Shown: piece after piece, positions 5,067-61,770 of the stretch
Layout: the number at the start of each line of letters is the position of its first letter
Numbering within the stretch: the first letter of the stretch is position 1
From: Psychrobacillus sp. FSL H8-0483
GTDB taxonomy: Bacteria; Bacillota; Bacilli; Bacillales_A; Planococcaceae
Assembly: GCF_038637725.1 (NCBI RefSeq)
Contig: NZ_CP152052.1
Span: 3,355,001-3,419,000, forward strand
DNA: 64,000 nt
Reading direction: 5' to 3'
Made by a program: the position numbers and the translations under genes
Notes under the pieces: model-generated
Database searches by the model: none
What the model saw: the letters and a program-made list of their open reading frames with translations, nothing else
Told to the model about the DNA's origin: nothing

Positions 5067-5119
5067 GACTCCGTTAAATTAGGCTGTAGTTTTTTAGAAC
5101 ATGATCGTTTAACAGAGCC
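5067..5119. repeat. Family III repeat, short internally deleted copy
   Basis: The left end GACTCCGTTAAATTAGG and right end GATCGTTTAACAGAGCC are the two distinct ends of a repeat seen again near 26.2, 54.2 and 56.2 kb. Here they are only 19 bp apart, so the core is lost. It lies between hemL and the FUSC gene. Confidence 0.6.
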
Positions 5120-24036: not shown

Positions 24037-24175
24037 AACATTTATCACTTTGTTGATTGAAGCGGCAGGCGGCGACTCCAGCGGGATGAGTGAGAAAGAT
24101 AAGACATCACAAACGACGCGTAGTGGCGGTGATGGCTTATCGCTCACCCCGCGGAAAGCGTCCGCCTATAGCGGA
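24037..24175. repeat. Family II structured repeat, copy 1
   Basis: 139 bp, matching 48251-48389 in inverted orientation with few differences. It contains GCGACTCCAGCGGGATGAG and, near the other end, ACCCCGCGGAAAGCGTCCG, which pair with each other. An inner pair, ATAAGACATCAC with GTGATGGCTTAT, extends the stem. No ORF. The rest of this gene-free stretch (24176-24304) shows nothing recognisable. Confidence 0.85.
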
Positions 24176-24304
24176 CACATGGGCTGAACTCTTTCTCCTT
24201 AATTTCTCTTAAAATACTGTAACCTATCCTCAACTATTTTAGCCCGCCTTTTTATATCCACTTCAATCTTTTGTAAATAGTAATGCAATAGGCCCTCTGA
24301 GTGT

Positions 24305-30718: not shown

Positions 30719-30860
30719 AGGCTCTGACCCTAAAGTCATACACTGACTGAGAGATGGTCCCTTTTCCAATGTATTGATTTCCGTTCCAGACGGACGCTTT
30801 CCGCGGGCATGGCTTCAGTCTCCTCGTCGCTTTCGCTCCTGCGGGGCCTTCAGCTCATGC

Positions 30861-30896
30861 ACCTGCCGCTTCGCTAACGGTGCAGAAAACACCTGC
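30861..30896. repeat. 36-bp insertion inside the family I repeat
   Basis: Present only in this copy. It starts ACCTGC, ends ACCTGC, and with the preceding GC contains the self-complementary pair GCACC / GGTGC. It looks like a nested mini-element with a 6-bp direct repeat. Confidence 0.6.
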
Positions 30897-30971
30897 TATT
30901 CCCGCTGGAGTCGCCGTCCTTCACTACAATCAATTGCCTACAAAAAATAGTAGTTTTAATAAAAAGTATAC

Positions 30972-31011
30972 AAAAAACAGGTGTAGAAAAAGACTCGTTT
31001 TTCTACACCTG
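30972..31011 (-). terminator. Terminator of the YihY gene, inside the repeat
   Basis: CAGGTGTAGAAAAA pairs with TTTTTCTACACCTG and is followed on the minus strand by a run of T. It is part of the repeat and is also present in copy 2 (56255-56288). Confidence 0.8.
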
Positions 31012-31013
31012 CT

Positions 31014-31985
31014 TCAAATTATGGGCTTATTGGACAGCCCCTTTTTTTGTTTTAAAGCAATTCTTCTTTCGTGCATAACTGCATTTATTTGTCCGCCAAC
31101 TAATAAAATAATTCCTGAAAAATACAACCATAACATAAGGACGATGATTCCCCCAATACTTCCGTAAGTAGCAGAGTAGCTCTTGAAATTACTTACATAG
31201 TAGGAGAATAAGAGAGAAACTACAATCCAGCCAATTGCGGCAAAAGCCGCTCCTGGAATGACACTTCTTAAAAAGAGTTTTTTATTTGGAACAATCCAAT
31301 ATAGTGCAACTAACACAATAAACATGATGAGAGGACTAAATGTCCATCTTAAATTATTCCAAAATTCCACAAAACTCTTTTCAAATCCAAAATATGAAAA
31401 TAATATGGTACCGATTTGTTGACCAAACACAGGTAATACTAACGCAATTATTAACAACATGATCAGTAATAAGGTGAAAATAACCGACATTCCTCTAACG
31501 ATAAAAGATGGTCTAGATTCCACCAAATTATACGATCTATTTAATGATTTAACGATAGCATTCATACCGGTAGAAGCAGACCAAATTGTACCTATAAGCC
31601 CTAAGGATAATAGCCCACCATTTCGAGTGACTAATACATCAGAAATCGTTTTTTCTATAAGAATAAAAACGTCAATTGGAACATAGTTTTCTATAAGTCG
31701 AAAAACTTGTGCTTCGTCCAAATTTAAATAAGGTAATAACGTAACGATAAAAATAAGTAACGGGAATAAGGAGAGCAAGAAAAAGTATGCTAACTGCGCT
31801 CCAAATCCCGTTATATCCGTTTTTTGTATATTAAATAATAGTTGTTTGAAATATCCCATCCATGTCGTTAAATCATGAGATTCTTCCGTTACTATTTCTT
31901 TCTTTTTGATACTAAATAATTTTAACTTTTCAAACCAACTAGTAGAGGATGAAGCTTTTTTTTTTTTGGGTATTATCTTTTTCAT
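31014..31985 (-). CDS. yfkH: YihY/BrkB (virulence factor BrkB) family membrane protein, YfkH-like
   Basis: An integral membrane protein of 323 residues. A basic cytosolic N-terminus (KKIIPKKKK and onward to about residue 50) is followed by six hydrophobic segments. Family landmarks are GFGAQLAYFFLLSLFPLLIF, GTIWSASTGMNAIV and YYVSNFKSYSATYGSIGG. The family was once called RNase BN in error, and its transport role is unknown. The last residues, KGLSNKPII, and the stop are encoded by the end of the family I repeat, so the C-terminus has been replaced. It lies 36 bp after the YtxH-like gene, probably in one unit. Confidence 0.88.
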   Translation of the reverse strand: MKKIIPKKKKASSSTSWFEKLKLFSIKKKEIVTEESHDLTTWMGYFKQLLFNIQKTDITGFGAQLAYFFLLSLFPLLIFIVTLLPYLNLDEAQVFRLIENYVPIDVFILIEKTISDVLVTRNGGLLSLGLIGTIWSASTGMNAIVKSLNRSYNLVESRPSFIVRGMSVIFTLLLIMLLIIALVLPVFGQQIGTILFSYFGFEKSFVEFWNNLRWTFSPLIMFIVLVALYWIVPNKKLFLRSVIPGAAFAAIGWIVVSLLFSYYVSNFKSYSATYGSIGGIIVLMLWLYFSGIILLVGGQINAVMHERRIALKQKKGLSNKPII

Positions 31986-46380: not shown

Positions 46381-46395
46381 CGCGATTGTCAGTTT

Positions 46396-46476
46396 CCATC
46401 CACATCCCTACGCAAGCATGAACTTACAGGTTCTAAGGGTACTATCTCAGCCGCTTAAGCGACGCCCCTTGTGGTT
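46396..46476 (-). ncRNA. TPP riboswitch (THI element) of thiT
   Basis: The minus strand reads ACAAGGGGCGTC, then GCTGAGATAGTACCC, AGAACCTG and finally CGTAGGGATGTGG. The CTGAGA core and the closing GTAGGGA are the conserved TPP aptamer parts. Thiamine pyrophosphate should favour the adjacent terminator and switch thiT off. Confidence 0.95.
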
Positions 46477-46582
46477 ATGAATTATTTAGTTCGAGTTCAT
46501 TGTAGCTGAATGAAGTAAGCAATGCAACCCCTTATGTTATCATTGTAATAATATTGGGAATTTAATATAAGGGGTGTTTGGA

Positions 46583-48201: not shown

Positions 48202-48250
48202 AAAAGCGCTAATCAATATGTATCTTACACGGAATAAAGTATAGTTGATT

Positions 48251-48389
48251 TCCGCTATAGGCGGACGCTTTCCGCGGGGTGAGCGATAAGCCATCACCGC
48301 CGCTATGCGTCGTTTGTGATGTCTTATCTGTCTCACTCATCCCGCTGGAGTCGCCGCCTGCCGCTTCAATCAACAAAGTAATAAATGTT
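48251..48389. repeat. Family II structured repeat, copy 2
   Basis: The inverted counterpart of 24037-24175, also 139 bp. It starts TCCGCTATAGGCGGACGC and ends with ACTTTGTTGATTGAAGCGG in the other orientation. The remaining gene-free DNA to 48580 shows no clear gene or family member. Confidence 0.85.
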
Positions 48390-48580
48390 CGTAATTGAAT
48401 GACAAAGTACTATTTATAAAATTAACTCAGTTATCAACTTATTAGAGGGTTTTTCGGAGCAACTTGTTCTAATGGTTTCGGGAATGCTTAGTGCAGACTC
48501 TTCCACTTCATTACCGAAAGGTCCTAACAGACTAATACTCTGCTTCCAATGTAATCCATTGGAGTTCTTATTCAATCAAT

Positions 48581-54181: not shown

Positions 54182-54275
54182 GGTTCTGTTAAACGATCAA
54201 GTTGTTATGTACGAAAATCCGCTCGCTTTCCGCGAACGAACTGCCAAGTCTCCTCGGGCAGATCCTTTTAGTAAA
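54182..54275. repeat. Family III repeat, left-end fragment
   Basis: GGTTCTGTTAAACGATCAAG followed by CCGCTCGCTTTCCGCG and CTCCTCGGGCAG. The right end is missing. Confidence 0.6.
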
Positions 54276-54331
54276 TAAAATTTATTCTTTATCATTTATA
54301 CTCTCCTAGTCGAATACTGTAGAATAAAGGA

Positions 54332-56212: not shown

Positions 56213-56224
56213 TATAAAAAAGAA

Positions 56225-56510
56225 GGGGCTGTCCAATAAGCCCATAAATTGAAGCAGGTGTAGAAAAACGAGTCTTTTTCTACACCTGACTTTTGTATAC
56301 TTTTTATTTATACTACTATTTTTTGTAGGCAATTGATTGTAGTGAAAGACGGCGACTCCAGCGGGAATAGCATGAGCTGATGGCCCCGCAGGAGCGAAAG
56401 CGACGAGGAGACTGAAGCCATGCCCGCGGAAAGCGTCCGTCTGGAACGGAAATCAATACATTGGTAAAGGGACCATCTCTCAGTCACTAAATGACTTTAG
56501 GGACAGCCCC
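56225..56510. repeat. Family I MITE-like repeat, copy 2 (286 bp)
   Basis: Terminal inverted repeats GGGGCTGTCC (56225-56234) and GGACAGCCCC (56501-56510). Same sequence as 30720-31041 in the other orientation, without the 36-bp insertion. It contains the terminator-like hairpin 56255-56288 and the frame GGCGACTCCAGCGGG ... CCCGCGGAAAGCGTCCG. No transposase gene. Confidence 0.9.
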
Positions 56511-58309: not shown

Positions 58310-58356
58310 AAAAAAGCCCTTCGCTCCCTACATAAATGTAAGGGGCGAAGAGCTTG
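58310..58356 (-). terminator. T-box terminator of serA
   Basis: AAGCTCTTCGCCCCTTAC pairs with GTAGGGAGCGAAGGGCTT and is followed by seven T on the minus strand. Confidence 0.92.
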
Positions 58357-58555
58357 TAAAAAACTCACGCGGTACCACCCAAATTTACTGCAAATAATCT
58401 GCAGCTTCTTATTTCATATGCTTAACGCGCATTTACGAATGAACCTACTTAGTTATTCAGCTCACCAATTCAAGAGTGCTACTTCACATGTAAAATCACT
58501 GATTTGCACCATCCATCAGCTCTCTTTAGATTTCAAAATGTAAGCCTATCTCCGT
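58310..58555 (-). ncRNA. T-box riboswitch leader of serA
   Basis: The minus strand contains the conserved T-box TGGGTGGTACCGCG (58381-58368) in the antiterminator, followed by the terminator. The upstream stem I has GAGAGCTGATGG and GGTGCAAATCAG. An AGC (serine) codon at 58462-58460 in the 3' side of stem I is a candidate specifier, not proven. Uncharged tRNA should stabilise the antiterminator and turn serA on. Confidence 0.93.
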
Positions 58556-58599
58556 CAAAATTGTTTAAGTTTTATTTGATTAAATTCATCATACGCACT

Positions 58600-61452: not shown

Positions 61453-61597
61453 TCTCTCACCCTCTTTATTTCATTTTGGTTGAGTTAGTATATCATAAAA
61501 TTATTGACAATACCTTAATAATATGAGAAGATAAAGGATGTTAACAATTTTGGTAGTGCATAAATTAAGAATTTTGGCATTCTGCTTTATGTGTTTT

Positions 61598-61770
61598 TGA
61601 ACATACTTATTCACACTGGAGCGACTACAGGGTCGCAAGGACGTAAAAGAAGGTAGGGTTTACGTTGCTTAGGTTAGAAGGCAACCAGTGGAACAATTTA
61701 CCGCGGCATTGAAAGATGAGTCTTTCATGGATAATTATTCTCCGATTTTTTCGGAATGATATTTGACTTC
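61598..61770. ncRNA. Unassigned structured RNA-like segment
   Basis: Read on the + strand, CACTGG pairs with CCAGTG about 75 nt later and encloses three hairpins: GCGAC/GTCGC, ACGTAAA/TTTACGT and GTTGCTT/AAGGCAAC (one bulge). Then come GAAAGA/TCTTTC and TCCGA/TCGGA. The pattern resembles a multi-branched RNA. It matches no class I know, and the transcribed strand is uncertain. The rest of 61453-61800 shows no gene. Confidence 0.4.

Follow-up and report, generated by a model that had tools for sequence, protein, structure and literature searches.

We describe a hairpin repeat whose unpaired joints are conserved while the helices between them vary in sequence yet stay paired. Four copies are found in a stretch of 64,000 nucleotides (hereafter the window), which covers positions 3355001-3419000 of the 4.14-Mb genome of Psychrobacillus sp. 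FSL H8-0483. The repeat is one of the extragenic palindromic repeats carried by MITEs, and has an unusual modular fold. On balance, we regard it as probably a modular non-coding hairpin that hitch-hikes as MITE cargo and is under selection for its fold.

Copies in the window and in the genome

A preliminary description of the window had proposed that two repeat families, I and II, share one frame around self-complementary cores, and this was confirmed. One arm of the frame, GGCGACTCCAGCGGG, occurs exactly four times within the window (24071, 56351 and, on the reverse strand, 30901 and 48341), and the other, CCGCGGAAAGCGTCCG, has four exact matches and one with three mismatches at 54220, compared with means of 0.19 and 0.04 matches, respectively, in shuffled windows at no more than three mismatches. 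The cores fold, with z of -3.1 for 56333-56456 and -6.1 for 48245-48373. The stretch first noted, 56340-56450, is part of a larger unit, since the hairpin occupies 56326-56463 and lies within a 286-bp MITE at 56225-56510. The features are as follows, where R1 denotes the covariance model of the element.

56326..56463, + strand: frame hairpin of family I with short core, the copy noted first (R1 match of 123.6 bits, E 9.7e-32; fold)
56225..56510, + strand: MITE I around the 56326..56463 hairpin, with ends GGGGCTGTCC and GGACAGCCCC, both exact
30767..30940, - strand: frame hairpin of family I with an additional hairpin inserted at the core base (R1 E 9.7e-21; sequence)
30720..31041, - strand: MITE I around the 30767..30940 hairpin, left end exact, right end decayed to GGGTCAGAGCC
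48238..48380, - strand: frame hairpin of family II (R1 E 6.1e-25; fold z -6.1)
48414..48429, - strand: left end of MITE II, TGAGTTAATTTTATAA, one mismatch (sequence)
24046..24188, + strand: frame hairpin of family II with truncated outer flanks (R1 E 3.2e-22; sequence)
54195..54278, - strand: possible decayed relative, "family III" (exact string at 54219; R1 8.8 bits, E 1)

No right end of MITE II was seen at the 48238..48380 copy. As for the third family that had been suggested, its string CCGCTCGCTTTCCGCG is indeed present exactly at 54219, but the covariance model reaches only E = 1 there, and we do not regard this place as an established member. Another dispersed repeat, resembling AATAGGCTCTGTTAAACGAT, is located at 5094, 26187 and 54177 of the window, and adjoins the string at 54219. 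In addition, a BrkB-family ORF (31014-31985, - strand) runs into a MITE I end, from which it takes its final codons and its stop (31014-31041).

Genome-wide, 136 places match the first arm with no more than two mismatches (two for the reversed control), from which 101 frame copies were fetched and read; exact matches to the second arm number 95, compared with none for the control.

In Rfam 15, the frame has no match at the gathering score within the window, and only the 56326..56463 copy gives sub-threshold matches, with a best E of 0.024. This best match, which spans MITE I at 56219-56473, is to the tsr24 RNA of S. aureus; tsr24 was rejected as the Rfam family of the frame, being below its cut-off, and our guess is that a similar MITE end may be present in both. 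Other Rfam matches in the window are a T-box leader preceding serA (58338-58567), a TPP riboswitch (46388-46479) and the BsrC small RNA (61591-61678), all on the - strand. Among the open-access papers listed by string and topic searches, none describes the frame; as string searches miss supplements, we consider the element undescribed only provisionally.

Architecture and covariation

The element is an imperfect hairpin of about 110-140 nt, in which variable helices alternate with conserved unpaired joints. From the outside inwards, the order is the outer helix P0, the joint AGCGGA/AGCGG, P1, the joint GACTCC(A/T)/GGAAAGC, P2, the joint GACCCC/GAGGAGGCT and the tip P3. The joint GACTCC/GGAAAGC is unpaired and nearly invariant, with GACTCC and GGAAAGCG as its near-invariant strings; GACCCC/GAGGAGGCT is likewise unpaired and mostly conserved, and the conservation of AGCGGA/AGCGG was judged by eye. 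On the + strand, the joints are rich in purines.

Covariation was evaluated on copies outside the window's genome. Among 211 matches, 160 have the canonical core, 140 of which are distinct, and 62 were kept after near-duplicates and odd lengths had been removed; core II is absent from this test, because only canonical-core copies were taken. RNAalifold gives 22 consensus pairs, 16 of them changed on both sides. For example, one column pair in P2 is AU in 14 copies, UA in 13, GC in 13 and CG in 12. Since the outer parts align poorly, an alignment-free test of arm pairing was added, based on 60 shuffles. The two arms of P1 pair at -12.9 kcal/mol within a copy and at -7.7 kcal/mol with the arms of other copies (z -17.3), and the corresponding z values are -10.1 for P0, -13.2 for P2 and -8.8 for P3. 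These results support the earlier suggestion that selection acts on the frame and on core pairing instead of core sequence, and a lack of covariation, which had been named as evidence against it, did not appear. Covarying helices of this kind are expected of a structured RNA, and a DNA hairpin is also compatible with them.

Carrier MITEs

Two unrelated carriers have been identified. The family I unit is about 285 bp or more, with the ends GGGGCTGTCC and GGACAGCCCC, and the family II unit is about 280 bp, with the ends TGARTYAATTTCATAA. For MITE I, 12 exact facing end pairs are found 204-479 bp apart, and the units show terminal inverted repeats, no coding content and an insertion signature, as MITEs do; MITE II shows the terminal inverted repeats TGARTYAATTTCATAA with a 2-bp duplication and is likewise a MITE. 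When two and three mismatches are allowed in the ends, respectively, 33 of the 101 copies lie between both ends of MITE I and 12 between both ends of MITE II, and the other 56 copies in the window's genome have no two recognisable ends of either MITE around them. The mobile nature that had been proposed is supported for the two carriers and not for the hairpin alone.

The flanks of the two MITEs differ. For MITE I (26 copies), the mutual complementarity of the flanks over the inner 3-6 bases exceeds that in all 500 shuffles, and at 8 and 10 bases it is equalled in 4 and 8 of the 500; their direct identity is at the shuffled level, marginally higher only at 8 bases, and there is no clear direct duplication. 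The complementary flanks point to insertion into palindromes. For MITE II, the identity over 2 bp is 0.80, against 0.35 (maximum 0.59) after shuffling, in a test of 23 rows that counts some copies on both strands. Facing ends 0.6-3 kb apart, which a full-length partner would give, were not seen in the genome with exact ends for MITE I and up to one mismatch for MITE II, and the one end pair separated by 4.7 kb (1798206/1802878) consists of two like ends.

Internal deletions of the hairpin are tolerated in the MITE copies L272-L276. Short MITE copies without the hairpin, considered as "empty" ancestors, were rejected as such, since they resemble internal deletions. At the other extreme, a 479-bp MITE I copy (genome 1089811-1090289) has a core with several nested hairpin inserts, including repeated CTCCTGCGCAAAGCTCGTCGCAAAAG units.

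Exchange of cores and nested modules

The cores had been described as exchangeable, and this stands only in part. Besides families I and II, we distinguish "IIb", the family II core in other flanks, and "V", which has its own flanks. Among the 111 classified copies, 79 are pure I, II or V, so that the cores are mostly linked to the outer family, and those beyond IIb and the mosaics had at least one part unscored. Exchange is represented by the core common to two carriers, II and IIb (four IIb copies with core II, one with the right flank unscored), and by two cross-family mosaics joined at the frame, V-I-V near 961519 and I-II-II near 1672163. With two mosaics among the classified copies, cores do cross frames, but rarely.

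Longer cores carry inserts, one of which is the Rfam Bacillaceae-1 RNA (RF01690), matched over all 67 model positions. In four of eight frame-bearing loci searched, the best match scores 74.5-77.8 bits (gathering score 35), and one locus (L092) has a second match of 45.5 bits; at the element, nothing else exceeds an Rfam gathering score in these eight loci, and it is the nested module that does so, not the frame. Of 78 genome-wide matches, 77 over the cut-off, 18 fall in the 101 fetched frame copies, where 0.76 would be expected. Two of these 18 (577812, 3818808) are reversed and lie near the base of core II. Around other Bacillaceae-1 matches, the module was recognised by pattern in eight of 20 loci fetched. 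By eye, joints similar to GACTCC and GGAAAGCG flank it in seven of the eight, the exception being L310 without the left joint, and the outer helix differs from the frame in L301, L307, L311 and L320. Six of the eight carry the module at the tip, and L302 and L303 have it reversed and close to the base. It lies in the right arm in two congeners, and was also seen by eye in a further genome, G604 (L231). In the copies at 1581923 and 3500789, the first insert itself contains another one, which follows the same design but has other stems. Here Bacillaceae-1 looks like an inserting module.

The junction between a HAD hydrolase gene and serA, as assigned from domains, can be compared across the genus. 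MITE I ends are found there in the window's genome only and are absent in all 18 congeners. Inspection by eye revealed other hairpins of this class in five of the 18 (G002, G003, G006, G007, G013), unrelated repeats in five, a short gap with an inverted repeat in six, and neither in the stretch shown for two, giving a recognisable copy in six of 19 genomes. G007 and G013 have common flanks and an identical Bacillaceae-1 insertion with differing cores. At this orthologous site, core replacement and drift are both possible explanations, since the two cores still align partly. This convergent junction is also a hotspot for unrelated short repeats in other species, such as CTCTCAGTTCCACACAAA and CTCGGGCG units (L253, L254, L257, L260, L270).

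Distribution and genomic context

Every one of the 19 congeners has an exact 16-base arm, in 1 to 98 copies, as do 186 of 261 genomes from the order (12 of 19 genera), and the reversed control gives no match in either set. The 13-base core CCCGCGGAAAGCG occurs in 77 of the 398 genomes sampled from the class, with up to 167 copies (G612); single matches of it are not taken as evidence, because the reversed control, mostly 0, reaches 1-3 in some genomes. Among the matches listed are Planococcus, Sporosarcina, Paenisporosarcina, Evansella, Alteribacter, Virgibacillus, Jeotgalibacillus, Lysinibacillus and Lederbergia. Copies in the congeners can be arranged in tandem, with units of about 200-240 bp. 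In G604, which has 154 copies, 64 of 100 listed copies are in inverted pairs 237-477 bp apart, and seven of the eight pairs read join hairpins with differing P1 helices. The bases just outside the left arm are nearly identical in Sporosarcina luteola (L110, L113) and Lederbergia galactosidilytica (L131), hinting that a larger unit may have been transferred between genera. Four plasmid records, from Priestia and Planococcus, contain the element, one "plasmid" of 1566 bp being a linear entry that carries a single enzyme gene; phages gave no match, and viral contigs no exact one.

The copies had been expected to lie preferentially between convergent genes. In the window, all four copies are in convergent gaps, and in the whole genome the bias is strong: 37 gaps with a copy are convergent, 6 divergent and 47 tandem, compared with 16, 41 and 69 without one (P = 2e-6 and 4e-6; 90 gaps, after nine copies sharing a gap and three at an edge had been dropped). 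In the named genera the bias is weak, with 23, 13 and 63 gaps against 38, 59 and 162 (P = 0.06 and 0.055; 99 gaps, 16 and 42 copies dropped, and one genome may contribute several copies). Ten congener loci chosen for their arrays give 6, 1 and 4 against 6, 8 and 17 (P = 0.049 for convergent gaps). Scattering in all contexts including genes, the opposite pattern, did not appear: with a simple ORF caller, none of the 102 copies in the window's genome and none of the 157 in the named genera overlaps an ORF of at least 300 aa. This cut-off was set because short ORFs consisted largely of the element; the apparent copies inside ORFs (18/102 and 19/157) were dismissed, as these ORFs are all shorter than 210 aa and mostly element sequence. 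A replication-strand bias of the copies was likewise rejected as an artefact of the order in the first listing.

Proposed mechanism and alternative explanations

The anatomy of the copies is observed directly, and from it we infer that in the window's genome the hairpin multiplies mainly as cargo of unrelated MITEs. MITE I inserts into palindromes, probably terminator hairpins, and would do so through an IS1182-like reaction; such targeting would explain the convergent intergenic pattern in this genome. MITE II leaves 2-bp duplications. New cores would come from compensatory drift, from inserted modules such as Bacillaceae-1, and from occasional recombination between copies across the frame. 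As the joints are unpaired yet conserved, a conserved factor, either of the host or of transposition, presumably recognises the folded strand.

Of the natures suggested earlier, namely a structured RNA, a protein-binding repeat or a mobile element, the last holds for the MITE carriers, and between a structured RNA and a DNA hairpin the strand evidence is mixed. A structured RNA that acts in cis in 3' UTRs or as a small RNA, with the + strand transcribed from the gene upstream and the joints binding a protein so that mRNA ends are protected or processed, is possible, though we think it unlikely. In tandem gaps, the copies follow the gene strand in the named genera (45 vs. 18, P = 0.0009) and in the window's genome (29 vs. 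18, P = 0.14), but the counts are reversed in two smaller sets, the array loci (1 vs. 3) and G604 (11 vs. 17), the latter obtained with a cruder ORF rule and blurred by the inverted pairs. In 51 of the 62 copies the + strand, with its purine-rich joints, has the better fold of the two strands, and the 22 consensus pairs have 33 GU cells compared with 19 AC cells; the fold asymmetry and these counts favour RNA or one DNA strand without proving either. Against an RNA stand the copy number, which ranges from 1 to 98 within the genus, and the serA copy, recognisable in 6 of 19 genomes, a turnover that fits a repeat better than an essential RNA. Could the fold instead be passive, that is, an old hairpin trapped in MITEs whose pairing is kept by template switching and not by selection? 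The hairpin deletions tolerated in L272-L276 agree with such passenger DNA, quasi-palindromes self-correct, and the covariation could stem from this process, although conserved mismatches should then be erased. What is seen is the opposite of self-correction alone, since the joints are conserved across genera while the helices change, and different carriers hold the same frame; hence we find this explanation rather improbable.

The ends of the repeat had also been supposed to be recognised by a resident enzyme, which found no support: none of the 11 Y1 loci examined has an adjacent copy, and no full-length MITE partner was seen. We judge it very unlikely that the repeat is a palindrome of the REP/BIME type, moved in trans when a resident Y1 transposase (RAYT) cuts the single-stranded hairpin. 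Y1_Tnp matches do occur in 18 of 19 congeners, and the element is extragenic, palindromic and frequently arranged in inverted pairs in G604. However, no frame copy lies within about 1.5 kb of a Y1 gene in the 11 loci examined out of 27 places listed. Nor does copy number track Y1 presence, as G004 contains copies but no Y1 match and the 98 copies of G017 accompany a single one. The element is also much longer than REPs of 20-40 bp (PMC3733652). Two of the Y1 (RAYT-like) genes are at 770034 (L031) and 927235 (L032), the latter beside a GGTGCC/GGCACC palindrome that is perhaps its cognate repeat.

We thus favour the selected, MITE-borne hairpin. More broadly, and tentatively, it may represent a large undescribed class of folded nucleic acids in Bacillales, with three conserved joints set among freely covarying helices and recognised by a conserved cellular factor, in which Bacillaceae-1 is a mere extension and which unrelated MITEs have repeatedly acquired as an advantageous fold. 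If such a class is real, the advantage to the MITEs would lie in protected insertion sites or in stabilised or terminated transcripts, and the orphan Rfam family Bacillaceae-1 would gain a place within a larger repeat. One hairpin as cargo of MITEs with different ends also suggests that extragenic palindromes could spread without a transposase of their own, and the natural compensatory variants are at hand to ask what keeps bacterial palindromic repeats folded.

Comparison with known systems

The frame element resembles REPs, BIMEs and REPINs in being extragenic, palindromic, of high copy number and, in one genome, arranged in inverted pairs. It differs from them in the length of the hairpin (about 110-140 nt, compared with the 20-40 bp given for REPs in PMC3733652) and in its several conserved joints, and from RAYT-linked REPs in the lack of a neighbouring Y1 gene (0/11 loci) and in being partly MITE-borne. 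Among the interspersed stem-loop repeats of Bacillus, which include bcr1, Bant-1, Bhal-1 and Bhal-2 and measure 72-167 nt according to PMC2267715, Bhal-1 and Bhal-2 of B. halodurans might be relatives of the frame, as judged from their description there and not from sequence.

Bacillaceae-1 is listed as a candidate RNA by Weinberg et al. 2010 (PMC2864571; Rfam RF01690). The common ground is this 67-nt structured module, which frame hairpins carry either at the tip or, in reversed orientation, close to the base; it is the nested part only, and the Rfam model does not cover the frame, P1 or P2. For the carriers, the closest parallel is IS1272 of the IS1182 family, which is reported to insert into hairpins without duplication (PMC4923244). 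MITE I similarly has palindromic targets and no clear direct duplication, as well as terminal inverted repeats, and by this analogy it may belong to the IS1182 family. The difference is that the frame hairpin is internal cargo, shared by at least two unrelated carriers.
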